Source of the DNA: Synechococcus sp. CC9902
GTDB taxonomy: Bacteria; Cyanobacteriota; Cyanobacteriia; PCC-6307; Cyanobiaceae
DNA: 64,000 nucleotides
Reading direction: 5' to 3'
NCBI RefSeq assembly: GCF_000012505.1
Contig: NC_007513.1
Location: forward strand, 62,001-126,000
The translations under genes and the position numbers were made by a program. How positions within the stretch are numbered: position 1 is the stretch's first letter; each line of letters opens with the position of its first letter. The notes beneath the pieces are model-generated. The model did not search any database and was not told the DNA's origin. It saw only the letters and a program-made list of their open reading frames with translations. Positions 50,749-57,211 of the stretch are shown in pieces.

Positions 50749-50754
50749 TATAAG
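50749..50754 (+). promoter_or_regulatory. Possible -10 element for the repeat-protein gene
   Basis: TATAAG within GCTATAAGT lies 87 bases before the ATG of the repeat protein and after the stop of the GT4 gene, in the only sizeable gap of this operon. I see no good -35, which is common in cyanobacterial promoters. A promoter here would explain separate, strong expression of the repeat protein. Weak evidence. Confidence 0.25.
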
Positions 50755-50780
50755 TTGTCTGCAGGGCTTTCTCTGCGCAC

Positions 50781-50803
50781 ACCGCCCCCTTGGTGGGTGC
50801 GGT
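50781..50803 (+). promoter_or_regulatory. 5'-leader hairpin upstream of the repeat-protein gene
   Basis: ACCGC pairs with GCGGT and, after one mismatch, CCC with GGG around a TTGGT loop, in the leader about 38 bases before the ATG. It could stabilise the transcript or influence initiation; it is not followed by a T-run, so it is not a terminator. The start codon itself has no clear Shine-Dalgarno. Confidence 0.35.
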
Positions 50804-50840
50804 AGTGAGGAACATCCACACCCACCACTCTCTTCCCTTA

Positions 50841-52874
50841 ATGGCTGACTACAACGTAATCCTTGGAACTAGTACTGCCGATTCAGTTCTAGTAGGAAAT
50901 ACAACCGGTAATGATTCTCTCGCGTTACTCGCTGGTAACGACATTGTTACCGGTTCAGGCTTGAATGACGTCATCGATTTCGGTGCTGGTAACGATCTAC
51001 TAACTAAGCCTGGTGATTACACTGCCGCAACCGTTTTGGGCGGCACGGGTAATGACTCCATCTTTACAGGAAGCAAAGTTTCGACATCTCTTTTAGATGG
51101 TGGAGGAAACAATGACTCCATTACTCTCGCTAAGAGTGCTACTTACACTTCCGTCACTATTAGTGGTGGTCTGTCTAACGACACTATCAGTCTGAACGGT
51201 TCGTCGAGTCTTGTCTCTTCGTCTGTTTACGGCGGATCTTCATCAGTTTCTTCTACTGACTCTCAGGACAGCATTGCTCTTGGAAGCCTCAGTGCAAGTT
51301 ACATCCAGGGTAATGCTGGTTCAGATACCATCTCAGTTGCTGGAACTGTTTCTGACTCATCTGACGTAAAAGGTGGTCGCGGTTCTGACAGTATCTCCAT
51401 CACCAAATCTGTATCTGCTTCAAATGTCACTGGTGGTCTTAATTCTGACACCATCAATTTAGTTGCAACCGCAGCTTCAGGTACCTCAGTTTATGGCGGT
51501 AGTCTACGAGACACTTCATCTGATTCTGCCGATAACATCCGTTTAGCTGGCGGTACAGCCGGGGCTTTCGTCCAAGGTAATGGCGGGAATGACACTCTCG
51601 ATCTCGTTCTAACTACAGCTAACGAGTCAACTGTCAAAGGTGGTAAAGGTAACGATTACATCACTGCTGGTGGAATTGTTTCTCAATCAATCATCTCTGG
51701 TGACTTGGGTAACGACACCATCACCGTTCTGAGCGCTTCAAGCCAATCTTCAATCTATGGAGGTAATCTTCGCGATACTTCCACTGATGGTTCCGACTCC
51801 ATCTTATTTTCAGGTGGTGCTACCCAGGGATACATCCAAGCCAATGCTGGCGCTGACACCATCGTCGTCTCAGTAGCTTCTAAGCAGTCAACCATTCTTG
51901 GTGGTGGTGGTGCTGACTCCATCGTTGTCACAGGTGGTACTCAGTACACTGTTAACTCCAATAAAGGTGCTGACACACTTAACTGGGCTGCTGCAACTGA
52001 TAACTCATCATTCAATACTGGTGAAGACAACGACTACATCATTGGTACCGCAGCACTGACTTCAGGTTCTGTGTTTGGTGGTGCTGGTAATGACAGTCTT
52101 GGCATTACTACAAACGCTGGTAAGTATTACGGTGACGCTGGTAATGACAGCTTCACTGTTGTTATGTCTTCCACTTCATCAACTGTTTACGGTGGTTCTT
52201 CTGCTGGTGACACCGCCGCTGGCAACGACACACTTTCACTTACAAGCATGGCCGCTGGTCGTGTAGATATGGGTGGCGGCGCTAACAGAATGATTGCAGC
52301 TGGTGCAATCTCTGCTGGCACGATTGTTTCTGGAGCGGGTACCGATACCTTCTCTACTACCAGCGATATCTCCGCTGCTCGTCTTAATACTGGTGCTGGC
52401 AACGACAGCCTTAACTTCGGCGGTATGGTTTCTGCCACTACCATCATTAGTGCTGGTGCTGGTAACGACACCCTGACCTTCTCTAATGTTGTCTCTAGCG
52501 CCTCCATCGTTGGTGGTGCTGGCAACGACTCGTTGGCCTTCACAATGGGCGCTTCGATGCAGGGCTTTGTTGGAGCAGGTAGTCAAATGTTGGCTAACCA
52601 GTACTTCTACGAAGGTGGTTCTGATACCTTGTTCTTCAAGGGCACAACGACGCACACTGGCTTGTTGTTGAACATCAACGTTGCCACTGGCTCCTTCGAT
52701 AGTCTCTCAGCAACTGCTGTAAGCGGTGGTCAGAACATCATCGGTTCGACAACCTCTGGCGGTACGACTACATCCACTACACTCGCTTATGTACTGGGTG
52801 CCACCAATACCGCCAACATCACTTCTGGATTTGTCAACCAGTCTGTGATTGATGGCGTCACCGCTATCGGCTGA
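50841..52874 (+). CDS. RTX-like calcium-binding surface repeat protein
   Basis: 677 residues from MADYNVILGT; an upstream frame extension is not counted. The chain is built of GGxGxD/GNDT-type calcium-binding motifs: about 20 are seen, for example AGNDIV, FGAGNDLLT, GGTGNDSI, GGKGNDYIT, GDLGNDTITV, GGAGNDSLAF. Most lie 20-21 residues apart rather than 9. Three 88-residue super-repeats occupy residues 128-215, 216-303 and 304-389, starting SVYGG, SVYGG and SIYGG. No cysteine, almost no Pro or His, and very many Ser, Thr, Asn, Gly and Asp. No N-terminal signal peptide, so type I secretion (ABC transporter, 59.7 kb) is expected. Its codons are visibly more GC-rich than neighbouring genes, suggesting selection for high expression. 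Probable major cell-surface glycoprotein; SwmA of Synechococcus WH8102 is a conceptual analogue, not a proven orthologue. Confidence 0.85.
   Translation: MADYNVILGTSTADSVLVGNTTGNDSLALLAGNDIVTGSGLNDVIDFGAGNDLLTKPGDYTAATVLGGTGNDSIFTGSKVSTSLLDGGGNNDSITLAKSATYTSVTISGGLSNDTISLNGSSSLVSSSVYGGSSSVSSTDSQDSIALGSLSASYIQGNAGSDTISVAGTVSDSSDVKGGRGSDSISITKSVSASNVTGGLNSDTINLVATAASGTSVYGGSLRDTSSDSADNIRLAGGTAGAFVQGNGGNDTLDLVLTTANESTVKGGKGNDYITAGGIVSQSIISGDLGNDTITVLSASSQSSIYGGNLRDTSTDGSDSILFSGGATQGYIQANAGADTIVVSVASKQSTILGGGGADSIVVTGGTQYTVNSNKGADTLNWAAATDNSSFNTGEDNDYIIGTAALTSGSVFGGAGNDSLGITTNAGKYYGDAGNDSFTVVMSSTSSTVYGGSSAGDTAAGNDTLSLTSMAAGRVDMGGGANRMIAAGAISAGTIVSGAGTDTFSTTSDISAARLNTGAGNDSLNFGGMVSATTIISAGAGNDTLTFSNVVSSASIVGGAGNDSLAFTMGASMQGFVGAGSQMLANQYFYEGGSDTLFFKGTTTHTGLLLNINVATGSFDSLSATAVSGGQNIIGSTTSGGTTTSTTLAYVLGATNTANITSGFVNQSVIDGVTAIG
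51222..52007 (+). repeat. Tandem 264-bp super-repeats in the surface-protein gene
   Basis: Three tandem units, 51222-51485, 51486-51749 and 51750-52007, encode 88, 88 and about 86 residues. Each starts S-[VI]-Y-G-G, continues with an R/S-D-T-S-containing stretch in units 2 and 3 (LRDTSSD, LRDTSTD), and has GxD motifs at corresponding positions about 31-36, 51-57 and 71-77. DNA similarity between units is moderate, so the duplication is not recent. Confidence 0.8.
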
Positions 52875-52904
52875 TCAGTCAAGGTTCATTACAAATAACC
52901 GGTG

Positions 52905-52934
52905 GGAGAGAAGCTTAGCTTCTCTCCTTTTTTT
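52905..52934 (+). terminator. Rho-independent terminator after the surface-protein gene
   Basis: A perfect 10-bp stem GGAGAGAAGC / GCTTCTCTCC with a TTA loop, followed directly by seven T. It lies 31 bases after the repeat-protein stop. The ATG of the GT41 gene follows the last T without any gap. Confidence 0.9.
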
Positions 52935-55082
52935 ATGTACGAAATTCTTTTTGATTGGCCCGACCGTCTTATTAACTATGAGTACAAGGACAGTTTATAT
53001 ATCGCAGCTCGTCACTTGCGTCTTCAACAATTCTTAGAAGCTGAATCTATATTGTTGGCAAGACTCTCTCTTGATTTCGACAACCAGGATATCCATTTTT
53101 TGCTTTCATATTTATATTTACGACTATCTCGCTACGAGTCTTTTTTATATTCACTTTCTGAATTGAAGAGGCTTGATAAACCCGACGGAGCTTATTATTG
53201 TTTTATGTACTCTCAGTATCTTTTGCAGATAGGTGATATCTCTAAATTAGGTGAAAATCTTTCTTGGTTAATTTTAAGATCTAGTCAATTTTGGCCACTG
53301 CAGCTCATCGAAATTTCATATTATCTTAAAATTAATGATTTATCGAATGCTTATAAATTAGTATGCTCTTTATCGCAGCATCCCGCAACAGTTCTTGAAT
53401 CGGTTCGTCTCAAAAGTAGTATCTTGGTCTTGAATGGCCAGTTTAATGATGCACTAGCTCTTCTATCAAATGCATCACTTCGTTTCCCCTCACATCTTCC
53501 TCTTCGAATTCAACTCCTGGATTGTGCTGTACTAGGCCGCTCTCAATTACATACTCTTCCTATATTAAATCAACTTCTGCAAGATTTTTCCTTAACGAAG
53601 GAGTCTCTTGCATCTGTTAGTCAGGTTCGTCTTATCCAGAATAGATCTGCAGAGTCACGCCAACTAATCCTCAAAAATCGTGTATGGAATACAATTACCC
53701 CTAATACTGAATATTATTCAACGAATCTCTATAATTGCTACGATCGCCTGGGTTTAGGTGACTGGCTGCTTCATAGCCCATTCTTTACTGATCCTTCTTC
53801 TTTTACGCAAATACTTGCTGTTAAAGAGAATTTGTGTATGTCAGCAGCAAGTCTTGAACACTATGATTATTCGTCTTCGGTCTCATCTGTTATGCAGGAA
53901 TATTCTAATCGAATCGAGGCTTCTCCTATTAATAAATCTCCAGATTTTGTCAAAGTTAAATCGGTTTGCCGTATTCAAGAACCATTAACTATATTATGGC
54001 TTAGTTCTGATTTTTCGTATCACCCAGTTGGTAGATTTCTTTATGGATATTTTAGTGCACTCTCCTCCCCGATCCATAAGCATATTATTGTTGATTTAAA
54101 TGATCATGGTGTTGAGTCTACTCGTTATTTGTTCGAGCCACTTACTTCTGTTGAATCTATATGTATACCTCGTTTAGATTTGCCTGATCGTGTTTCAGAT
54201 ATTCGAAATTTAAATGCTGATATTGCAGTTGATTTGTCCGGTTGGACATCGGGACACTTTATGCCGGGCTTCCTTTCCAATTTATCTCCTATCCAGGTTA
54301 CCTACTTAGGTTATTTTGCATCTACTTTTAATCCATCAATTGATTATTGGTTAGGGGATTCCCAACTTTTTCCGGATACTATGCAGGAATCCCACACCGA
54401 ATCAATCTGGCGTCTTGGTCGTTGTTTCTTGGCTTGGCAGCCGCCTTCTGCTTTGGTTGAATCATCTTTAGATGTGCCATCATCTCCATTTACTTCATCC
54501 ACTGGCATTCGTTTCGGCAGTTTCAACCACCATCGTAAGTTATCAAATGAAACTCTCCAATTATGGGGAAAAATTATAAATTCAGTACCAGGATCCTCCT
54601 TAGTCTTAAAAATGGGTGAATCTGATGATCCAGGAACCTTTACTTTGTTATCAAAACGTATGCGTCGTGCTGGTCTTGACCCTGAGCGTATCACTTGGAT
54701 TCCACGACCACGCGATACTGTTCAGCATCTAAATCAATACTCTTTGGTTGATGTTGCTCTAGATTGTTTCCCTAATGGTGGTTGTACCACAACTTGTGAG
54801 GCTTTATGGATGGGAGTACCAGTCATCACTTCTACTGGGAACTCGTACGTGAGCCGTATGAGTTCCGCTGTTCTACATGGTGCAAATCTCCCCAACTGGT
54901 GCTTGTCCTCAAAATCCCAGTATTTTGACTTTGCTGTTCTTCAAGCCGAAAATTTAAGCTGGTTACGTGCCAATCGGCATTATTGGAGACAGAAGCTGAT
55001 TAACAGTCCACTTGGTAATGCTTCAGATCTCATGACTCATATCGAATTAGCCTTTTCAAAAATGGTCAAGGCTTCTAGATAA
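52935..55082 (+). CDS. TPR-GT41 (O-GlcNAc-transferase/SPINDLY-like) glycosyltransferase
   Basis: 715 residues from MYEILFDWPDRL. The first 300 or so are helical repeats of TPR type. The catalytic GT41 part has LWLSSDFSYHPVGRFLYG at about 357-374, IAVDLSGWTSGHFMPGF, QVTYLGYFASTFNPSIDYWL, IRFGSFNHHRKLS, then VDVALDCFPNGGCTTTCEALWMGVPVIT, all hallmarks of OGT-like enzymes that attach a sugar to Ser/Thr (or Asn) of proteins in the cytoplasm. It is the obvious candidate to glycosylate the Ser/Thr-rich repeat protein immediately upstream. A GTG at 52902 inside the terminator stem is an alternative start. The 3' end overlaps the convergent paralogue by 46 bases. Confidence 0.85.
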   Translation: MYEILFDWPDRLINYEYKDSLYIAARHLRLQQFLEAESILLARLSLDFDNQDIHFLLSYLYLRLSRYESFLYSLSELKRLDKPDGAYYCFMYSQYLLQIGDISKLGENLSWLILRSSQFWPLQLIEISYYLKINDLSNAYKLVCSLSQHPATVLESVRLKSSILVLNGQFNDALALLSNASLRFPSHLPLRIQLLDCAVLGRSQLHTLPILNQLLQDFSLTKESLASVSQVRLIQNRSAESRQLILKNRVWNTITPNTEYYSTNLYNCYDRLGLGDWLLHSPFFTDPSSFTQILAVKENLCMSAASLEHYDYSSSVSSVMQEYSNRIEASPINKSPDFVKVKSVCRIQEPLTILWLSSDFSYHPVGRFLYGYFSALSSPIHKHIIVDLNDHGVESTRYLFEPLTSVESICIPRLDLPDRVSDIRNLNADIAVDLSGWTSGHFMPGFLSNLSPIQVTYLGYFASTFNPSIDYWLGDSQLFPDTMQESHTESIWRLGRCFLAWQPPSALVESSLDVPSSPFTSSTGIRFGSFNHHRKLSNETLQLWGKIINSVPGSSLVLKMGESDDPGTFTLLSKRMRRAGLDPERITWIPRPRDTVQHLNQYSLVDVALDCFPNGGCTTTCEALWMGVPVITSTGNSYVSRMSSAVLHGANLPNWCLSSKSQYFDFAVLQAENLSWLRANRHYWRQKLINSPLGNASDLMTHIELAFSKMVKASR

Positions 55083-57211
55083 GCCTCCTCAAGTTGTTTT
55101 GATAGTCTTTTCTGGTTTGTTAGATCTGTTTTACTAAGTTTGGCTTTTAGTTGAATCCTTTTTTTCTCATCTCTTTTACCCTCTTTTCTTAATTTTACGC
55201 TTATATTTATATATTCTGTTTCGTTATTCCCAATCCACTCTTCACAACGTCCGTATTTTAAAATACTCGAACTTAGTCTTCCAACCATCCCTTCACCTTT
55301 CAAAGTTATTACCGGAACTCCCATCTCCAGTGCTTCACATGTGGTGGTTGCACCTCCATAAGGTATAGGATCTAGTGCTACATCTATTTCGTTATACTTT
55401 TCTTGATGCTTTATTTTGTCTGTTATATAAGGCATTAGTATAACTCTTTTTTTTGATATTCCATTTTTATTTAGCAAATTTATGATTCTTTCTTGTTCTT
55501 CTGTTTCACTGAAACTTATGCTTTTTAGTGCAATCTCAGATTCTGGATTTTCTTTCATCACCTTCGCGAATAGCCTGATTGTTTCGTATGTTAGTTTTCT
55601 CGAGTGATTGAAGCATCCAAATCTAAATTTCCTATTTAATGGCGTGTTTTTGATTACCGCCTCTGTCTTTAGTTCCATTGCCATATATCCATCTCTTATT
55701 TTGTATAGCTTGTGCACATCTCTTTGTGTCTTGTTTAACGATTCAAAAAGTATATCGTCACCTATCCAACCATCGATAGATTTTAGATACGTAGGTGCAA
55801 AATAGCCTAAATAACTCAATTGAATTTTTCCTGGTTTCTCTATTAATATCCCTAATCTGTTTTCTGCAGTGTATCCTCCTAATTCAATTAAAACATCTAT
55901 TCCATGATTTGCAATTTTCCTTGCTGCTTCTTGGTCTGATAAATTGTTGACATCTATCCATCCATTGCACATTTCTTTTATTTCTCTATTATTTGCATCT
56001 TTTCTTGAACCACAGTCTATACCAATTACTTTTACTCTTTTTCTATCATGTTCTTTTATTATTGGTTTTATGAATCTTCCTACAGGATGATCGCAGAAAT
56101 CTGCTGACATATATCCTACATTTATCCTTTCTTTATCTTTATCCTCTATCCTGTCACCCCACAAGGGTCCTATTCTCTTTTTGATTTTTATACTTTCCCA
56201 ATCTTCTGCCATACACTTGAGTTTTTCGCTGTCAATTATTTGATACCCTTCTCCTATAAACTGTAAGTTATACAAATTTTGCTCCGATATCTTTTTTTCT
56301 CCTTCTATTTCTTCTCGCATTACTTTAATTGCTAACTCTGGGTTCCCTGTTTCTGCTAAACATTGACTCATTGCATGTCTTAGATTGTCATTAGATGGAT
56401 TAATCGACAATCCTTTCTTTGATATCTGTAATGCTTCTATATTTCGCTTTAACTTTCTTTTGCAAGCGCACCAATTTAGCCAGTATATTGGTTGAAGTGG
56501 ATCAATTCTGCATAATTCTGCATAGTCTATTGCTGCTTCGTATATTTTTTCTTCTTTTAGTTTTAAATATGCTATTGCTCCCTTTATTGCTAATTCCTCC
56601 TTTAGATTACATTCCGTTTTTTCTACTTCCTTATTTGCCTCCTTAAATCTTCCTTTCTCGCTTAGTATTGTAATTATATTTGCGGTTGGTCTTGGGTCCT
56701 TGTTATTTATTTCTTTTGCTGTTCTAAAACTAACTAATGCTTCATCTATTTCACCATTGCTGTTATAGGCTCTACCTAGTTCAATCCATGTATTTGCTTT
56801 TGCATCCTTTTGTGATGTGAGTTCTTTTAGTAATTCTATTGCTTCAACTTTTTTCTCCATTGCTTGGTATAGCCTTGCCTTAGCTTCTGTTAACCTGATA
56901 TCATTGCTATATATCTCTGAAGTCTCTATTAGCCATTTATTTGCTTCTTTCAAACTATTAATTTCTATTGCTGCATTTACTGCATTTAAGCAGATATTAG
57001 GTGTTATCTCGACTCTTCCCCACCATGTCTTATACAACTTCATCGCTTCTTTTATTCTCCCTTGACTTCTTAGTAATGCCCCAAGATTTGCTATATCTTC
57101 CTCCTGAGCTCTCTCTTCTATAAGTTCCAAATAAATTTTTTCTGCCTTTATTAATTCGTTTTTCCTATGGTGCGTCCATCCCCTCTCTCTCTTTTGAATT
57201 CTATCTTCCAT
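55037..57211 (-). CDS. TPR-GT41 (O-GlcNAc-transferase-like) glycosyltransferase
   Basis: 724 residues. TPR repeats to about residue 340 (WIELGRAYNSNGEIDEALVSF and similar). GT41 motifs: VGYMSADFCDHPVGRFIK, DVLIELGGYTAENRLGI, QLSYLGYFAPTYLKSIDGWI, FRFGCFNHSRKLTYETI and EIDVALDPIPYGGATTTCEALEMGVPVIT. Same family as the convergent gene, yet Lys/Glu/Ile/Asn-rich instead of Ser/Leu-rich. Its ATG (minus strand, 57211) and the ATG of the divergent gene (57210) share two bases. A second protein O-glycosyltransferase with different acceptor or donor choice is the likeliest role. Confidence 0.85.
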   Translation of the reverse strand: MEDRIQKRERGWTHHRKNELIKAEKIYLELIEERAQEEDIANLGALLRSQGRIKEAMKLYKTWWGRVEITPNICLNAVNAAIEINSLKEANKWLIETSEIYSNDIRLTEAKARLYQAMEKKVEAIELLKELTSQKDAKANTWIELGRAYNSNGEIDEALVSFRTAKEINNKDPRPTANIITILSEKGRFKEANKEVEKTECNLKEELAIKGAIAYLKLKEEKIYEAAIDYAELCRIDPLQPIYWLNWCACKRKLKRNIEALQISKKGLSINPSNDNLRHAMSQCLAETGNPELAIKVMREEIEGEKKISEQNLYNLQFIGEGYQIIDSEKLKCMAEDWESIKIKKRIGPLWGDRIEDKDKERINVGYMSADFCDHPVGRFIKPIIKEHDRKRVKVIGIDCGSRKDANNREIKEMCNGWIDVNNLSDQEAARKIANHGIDVLIELGGYTAENRLGILIEKPGKIQLSYLGYFAPTYLKSIDGWIGDDILFESLNKTQRDVHKLYKIRDGYMAMELKTEAVIKNTPLNRKFRFGCFNHSRKLTYETIRLFAKVMKENPESEIALKSISFSETEEQERIINLLNKNGISKKRVILMPYITDKIKHQEKYNEIDVALDPIPYGGATTTCEALEMGVPVITLKGEGMVGRLSSSILKYGRCEEWIGNNETEYINISVKLRKEGKRDEKKRIQLKAKLSKTDLTNQKRLSKQLEEAYLEALTIFEKANSI

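Follow-up and report, generated by a model that had tools for sequence, protein, structure and literature searches.

A terminator-like hairpin adjoining the start codon of a GT41 glycosyltransferase gene behind an RTX gene in Synechococcus and its relatives

We describe a site in Synechococcus sp. CC9902 that has every sequence feature of an intrinsic terminator (52904-52934) and that separates the gene of an RTX repeat protein from the gene of a GT41 glycosyltransferase, GT41a, whose start codon follows the U tract without an intervening base. Comparison with related loci indicates that the layout of this putative terminator and GT41a is conserved while the stem sequences turn over. Taken together, the evidence favors, with some confidence, a true intrinsic terminator that ends the RTX unit and also gates GT41a through read-through. 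Placing an intrinsic terminator between two genes is in itself commonplace; what is unusual here is how tightly the parts adjoin and how well the layout is conserved. All coordinates refer to the 64 kb stretch of DNA analyzed here (the window), which belongs to a genome consisting of one complete 2.23 Mb contig; the relatives are genomes of the same genus and family.

Structure of the locus and the junction

The locus is densely packed, with adjacent genes that touch or overlap. GT41a and a second glycosyltransferase gene, GT41b, face each other and share 46 bp at their 3′ ends (55037-55082). Beyond GT41b lie a TPR protein, whose Glyco_transf_9 match is weak and falls just under the cut-off, an unassigned ORF and a 1006-aa ABC transporter. 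Among the matches listed, relatives have both the convergent GT41b neighbor and an identical gene order.

50841..52874, + strand: RTX repeat protein (the cargo), 677 aa; ORF with Pfam HemolysinCabind match, E 1.3e-6
52904..52928, + strand: putative terminator hairpin with TTA in the loop and a stem of 10 Watson-Crick pairs and a G-U pair
52928..52934, + strand: U tract of the terminator, 7 T, adjoining the start codon; read from the sequence
52935..55082, + strand: GT41a, TPR-type GT41 glycosyltransferase, 715 aa; a Pfam Glyco_transf_41 (PF13844) match of 71.2 bits (cut-off 25, E 7e-20) places it in the GT41 family; start backed by aligned N-termini
52956..52964, + strand: codons of the WPD motif, GT41a residues 8-10; from aligned N-termini
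55037..57211, − strand: GT41b, second GT41 glycosyltransferase, convergent; Glyco_transf_41, E 2.8e-35

The available portions of three papers dealing with RTX or secreted-protein content (PMC5839243, PMC4949626, PMC4949707) did not identify the RTX protein. In two relatives the RTX frame is divided among two or more overlapping ORFs (G008, L037 5736-8730; G287, L069 4571-9429), through either genuine interruption or sequence errors; G008 is also the locus in which GT41a starts farthest from the terminator.

The hairpin spans 52905-52927 and reads GGAGAGAAGC-TTA-GCTTCTCTCC, with arms at 52905-52914 and 52918-52927 that form ten Watson-Crick pairs around a loop that is UUA in RNA; an optional extra G-U pair joins G52904 to T52928. 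Immediately 3′ of the stem, seven T (52928-52934) run into the ATG (52935-52937) with zero bases between. The predicted RNA fold of -17.8 kcal/mol (z -3.98) was equaled in stability by none of 200 shuffles. This contiguity of stem, T7 and start codon, together with the stability of the fold, confirms the claim of a first-pass annotation that a terminator abuts the GT41 ATG. The same annotation had placed an alternative GTG inside the stem: an in-frame GTG does exist (52902-52904), but it sits at the stem foot and only its last base belongs to the stem.

Sites of this quality are rare. A lenient terminator pattern yielded 14 sites between 46000 and 62000 against a shuffle mean of 12.6 (sd 4.1), that is, no enrichment, and the longest stem among the 14 was that of the 52905-52927 hairpin. 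Under a stricter pattern (stem of at least 7 bp, 5 G-C pairs, 5 T of 7) this hairpin was the single site on both strands of the entire window, and under the strongest pattern (stem of at least 10 bp, 6 G-C pairs, 6 T of 7) the window held one site against none in 30 dinucleotide shuffles of 64 kb. A search for second copies across the genome found none, the only exact copy being the site itself.

The position of the GT41a start was assessed on aligned N-termini. The residues WP lie shortly past the start in 14 of the 18 GT41a proteins compared (see below), and WPD in 11. Because WPD occupies residues 8-10 in the window and the next in-frame start, a TTG 81 nt past the ATG, lies 3′ of the motif, the GT41a start should be either the ATG at 52935 or the GTG at 52902, which is not conserved. 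This GTG was rejected as a conserved alternative start, since in-frame starts ahead of the hairpin are found in only 4/18 loci (the window, G287, G068 and G070). A Shine-Dalgarno-like tetramer at -20 to -5 is absent in 15/18 loci. An independent promoter combined with another start codon downstream, which the first-pass annotation had named as the arrangement that would count against it, was not found, the next TTG being past the WPD motif. A weak promoter-like site (53024-53053, 9 of 12) lies within the GT41a coding region and could therefore serve a shortened protein only; such sites are rarer than in shuffles (29 vs 37.8).

Conservation of the junction and control comparisons

GT41a was used to search 400 family genomes, 90 of which matched at E 1e-30 or better. 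We retained the 18 places, one of them in the window, whose match reached E 1e-90 or better and left out all weaker ones, which included the convergent paralogues (GT41b) and further GT41 proteins; a more distant locus, G032, was treated separately. A related-locus search in the genome contigs returned no relative. The GT41a proteins of relatives are 36-49% identical to that of the window.

All 18 RTX-GT41a loci carry a terminator in the gap ahead of GT41a, with G-C-containing stems of -12.0 to -19.4 kcal/mol, and in 15 of them no more than 14 nt separate the T run from the start codon, which at times lies partly inside the run. The distance from the end of the T run to the start codon is zero in five loci (G000, G108, G091, G066, G293), -2 in G135 and G031, where a TTG borrows two T of the run, +1 in G076 and G225, and +6 to +14 in six more (G070, G068, G097, G096, G287, G113). 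The exceptions are G061 (34 nt), G020 (48 nt) and G008 (134 nt), the last with two terminators in its gap. At the more distant G032 locus, RTX gene, terminator and GT41 gene recur; there the T run is joined to an in-frame TTG, and an ATG follows 25 nt beyond. Most stem sequences bear no relation to one another, examples being GGAGAGAAGC (window), GGCCCCC (G108), GGGCGGC (G113 and G076) and GGGGAAGG (G068 and G096, which are related loci). This free turnover of stem sequences, with hairpin pairing judged from the folds, lends no support to the earlier proposal that the hairpin acts as a switch.

For comparison, we compiled a control set of 80 stretches of 20 kb from eight of the same genomes, none overlapping the RTX-GT41a loci. 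Among 231 tandem ORF pairs with gaps of 25-150 nt, a terminator was present in four and lay within 14 nt of the start in one. In a terminator-centered control, the most lenient rule placed some in-frame start within 14 nt of 8 of 37 terminators between tandem genes, in no case an ATG at distance 0. The difference in start proximity (15/18 vs 8/37) gives a Fisher p of 2e-5, but the 18 loci share ancestry, so that p values overstate independence, and the control figures are to be taken as guides, since their gene calls are ORF-based and their start rule is similar, not identical, to that applied to the 18 loci.

A conserved RNA element ahead of the RTX gene

Two further features lie upstream of the RTX gene.

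50749..50754, + strand: TATAAG, -10-like box of the RTX promoter; from the sequence, with TATAAA-like boxes similarly placed in most relatives
50779..50828, + strand: conserved structured RTX leader element, a hairpin of an UUGGUGGGU-type arm with an ACCCACCA-type arm and GCGGUnGUGAGGA in the loop; from an 18-sequence alignment

The element, of approximately 52 nt, is found about 60 nt ahead of the RTX start in all 18 loci, with 15 of 59 alignment columns invariant. Near it, no -10-like boxes of the searched forms were listed for G108, G113, G225 and G287. The hairpin pairs are kept in 94.4% of cells, compared with a maximum of 59.6% after sliding one arm, and at two pairs both sides have changed. 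The loop contains GUGAGGA. A covariance model located the element in 20 of the 400 family genomes, each time ahead of the same RTX gene; these are the 18 loci from which the model was built and two more, both near a contig end. Across 292 genomes of the phylum the model returned four matches, all from RTX-GT41a loci, and both large searches used strict filters, under which weak matches may be lost. No Rfam family matched the leader above its gathering score (the window's sole Rfam match is a tRNA elsewhere), the best weak match being CRISPR-DR57, at 15.5 bits against the 39 needed. The leader is a candidate for a new cis-regulatory RNA with a possible part in controlling RTX expression; that it also acts at the terminator is conceivable but lacks support.

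A second helix within the element (50779-50803), pairing CCGCCCCC with GGGTGCGG, would exclude the first and is paired in 95.9% of cells; its covariation does not exceed that of shuffles (61/500 as high). We rejected the reading of the element as a conserved N-terminal extension of the RTX protein, its distance to the ATG being 0 modulo 3 in 10/18 loci and 1 or 2 in 8/18. The G032 locus (L039 4240-4480) has a different leader, with a possible hairpin of GAGGCTTG and CAAGCCTC, which the leader model does not match.

A proposed read-through gate and its alternatives

Under the proposed model, polymerase starting at the RTX promoter would produce mainly RTX mRNA ending in the U tract, at the GT41a start codon or immediately upstream of it, and GT41a would be carried by the read-through fraction alone. 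The GT41a mRNA should be read-through RNA, because upstream promoters feed the terminator, the tight junction leaves no space for a promoter 3′ of the hairpin, and no -10-like box is seen in 13 of the 15 loci with an adjacent start. The genes are co-directional and -10-like boxes fall in the hairpin stretch in only 2/15 of these loci, as expected of a partial terminator within an operon that has no promoter behind it. Translation of the read-through RNA should be modest, given the absence of a Shine-Dalgarno-like tetramer (15/18) and the hairpin in the ribosome footprint: with GT41a starting right after the U tract and a stable hairpin within that footprint, the yield per transcript would be low. 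The outcome would be much secreted cargo and little glycosyltransferase from one promoter. We infer the termination efficiency, the read-through and the low translation; gene order suggests that such a ratio could be useful and that the RTX protein could be the substrate of GT41a.

The spacing between RTX stop codon and stem is compatible with efficient termination. It measures 29 nt in the window and 19-57 nt in 17/18 loci; according to the accessible part of PMC4824070, an Escherichia coli terminator 28 bp past the stop codon is about 90% efficient and one 5 bp past it less than 10%, so that the spacing here is in a range where the last ribosome no longer represses an E. coli terminator. The accessible part of PMC13289151 states that Rho is absent from cyanobacteria and that, in Synechococcus elongatus, terminators with longer U tracts show less read-through. 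Three observations weigh against a gate: the starts 34, 48 and 134 nt off in G061, G020 and G008, the dense packing throughout, from which small spacing could also result, and the single -10-like TAGCTT in the window's own hairpin.

Compaction alone could account for some of these data. The terminator would then end the RTX mRNA and protect its 3′ end, streamlining would have pushed GT41a close to it, and GT41a would live on leak transcription, with spacing and ratio unselected. Adjoining genes do overlap or touch, 8/37 sampled tandem terminators have some start codon within 14 nt, and stems vary freely among genomes; however, terminators between close tandem genes are rare (4/231 sampled, against 18/18 here), and if normal GT41a expression were needed, loss of the terminator or gain of a promoter would be expected somewhere. 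We consider this explanation unlikely, though it keeps appreciable weight. A promoter of GT41a's own, overlapping the hairpin and giving a leaderless or very short-leader mRNA, would draw on TAGCTT at 52916-52921 in the window and TATCCT in G068, and leaderless mRNAs are suggested for cyanobacteria in the accessible part of PMC5397173. No TANNNT occurs between stem foot and start in 13/15 adjacent loci, where stems are G-C rich and unrelated, and we rejected this very improbable alternative on the ground that the weak box is confined to the window and G068 among the 15. That the hairpin is a functionless product of chance would agree with the lack of overall enrichment in the lenient scan, but is hardly credible given that no hairpin of such strength arose in 30 window shuffles and that 18/18 relatives have a terminator.

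Read-through might instead be switched by regulated antitermination, the RTX leader RNA either loading a factor on RNA polymerase or folding conditionally. The leader is strongly conserved and structured (helix 94.4% paired vs at most 59.6% slid), and it stands only ahead of the RTX gene (20/20) and accompanies the terminator-GT41a junction wherever the contig reaches (18/18). We nevertheless assign this reading a small probability: the genome has a single NusG gene and thus no paralogue of the RfaH or LoaP type, an ops-like GCGGTAG occurs in 5/18 leaders while the others differ, no sequence links leader and terminator, and the leader may equally govern RTX translation or stability. We give little credence to a more elaborate proposal, a stop-or-start junction in which the U tract would be the ribosome landing site and partly the start codon, so that release and initiation compete, and in which the leader, as a processive antitermination element free of any NusG paralogue, would set passage.

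Intra-operon partial terminators set unequal expression in known cases such as the E. coli rplL-rpoB attenuator. The proposed gate resembles these in its intrinsic terminator, its co-directional genes with no promoter behind, and its abundant upstream and scarce downstream product, both predicted here. It differs in that the U tract adjoins the start codon or supplies part of it, that no Shine-Dalgarno sequence is present, and that read-through is predicted from sequence. In the E. coli hlyCABD operon, a terminator lies between hlyA and hlyB. That operon, with its RfaH/ops control, shares with the present locus the order of RTX cargo gene, terminator and cargo-handling gene and the conserved leader element, whereas the downstream gene here encodes a GT41 enzyme rather than an exporter, no NusG paralogue exists and ops is absent in 13/18 leaders. 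We rejected RfaH-like control, since the genome has one NusG gene (a single PF02357 match), hence no specialized paralogue, and most leaders are free of GCGGTAG. The ops element, GGCGGTAG in the accessible part of PMC6775461, was not found in the leaders, the window having TGCGGTAG and 5/18 leaders GCGGTAG. The stop- and start-proximal E. coli terminators in the accessible part of PMC4824070 likewise have an efficiency set by position relative to ribosomes, with the spacing here in their working range; they are synthetic plasmid constructs with tR2, and none described there is joined to the natural start codon of a following gene. GT41a and GT41b both match the GT41/TPR-OGT-like protein glycosyltransferases (PF13844), from which they differ in their link to an RTX/type I secretion locus. 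A literature search in the open PMC library returned no title on the terminator-start arrangement or the RTX leader, which is weak evidence of absence, and the accessible part of PMC3034196 contains nothing on terminators.

The proposed gate would constitute a compact design, independent of any particular sequence, by which one promoter could supply a large amount of secreted repeat protein but only a little of the modifying enzyme. Its hosts, which lack Rho, are among the most common phototrophs in the ocean, and according to the accessible part of PMC13289151 their termination is poorly understood. With their differing hairpins and a spacing range of -2 to +134 nt, the 18 natural variants are a ready set for testing the interplay of U tract, start codon and read-through.
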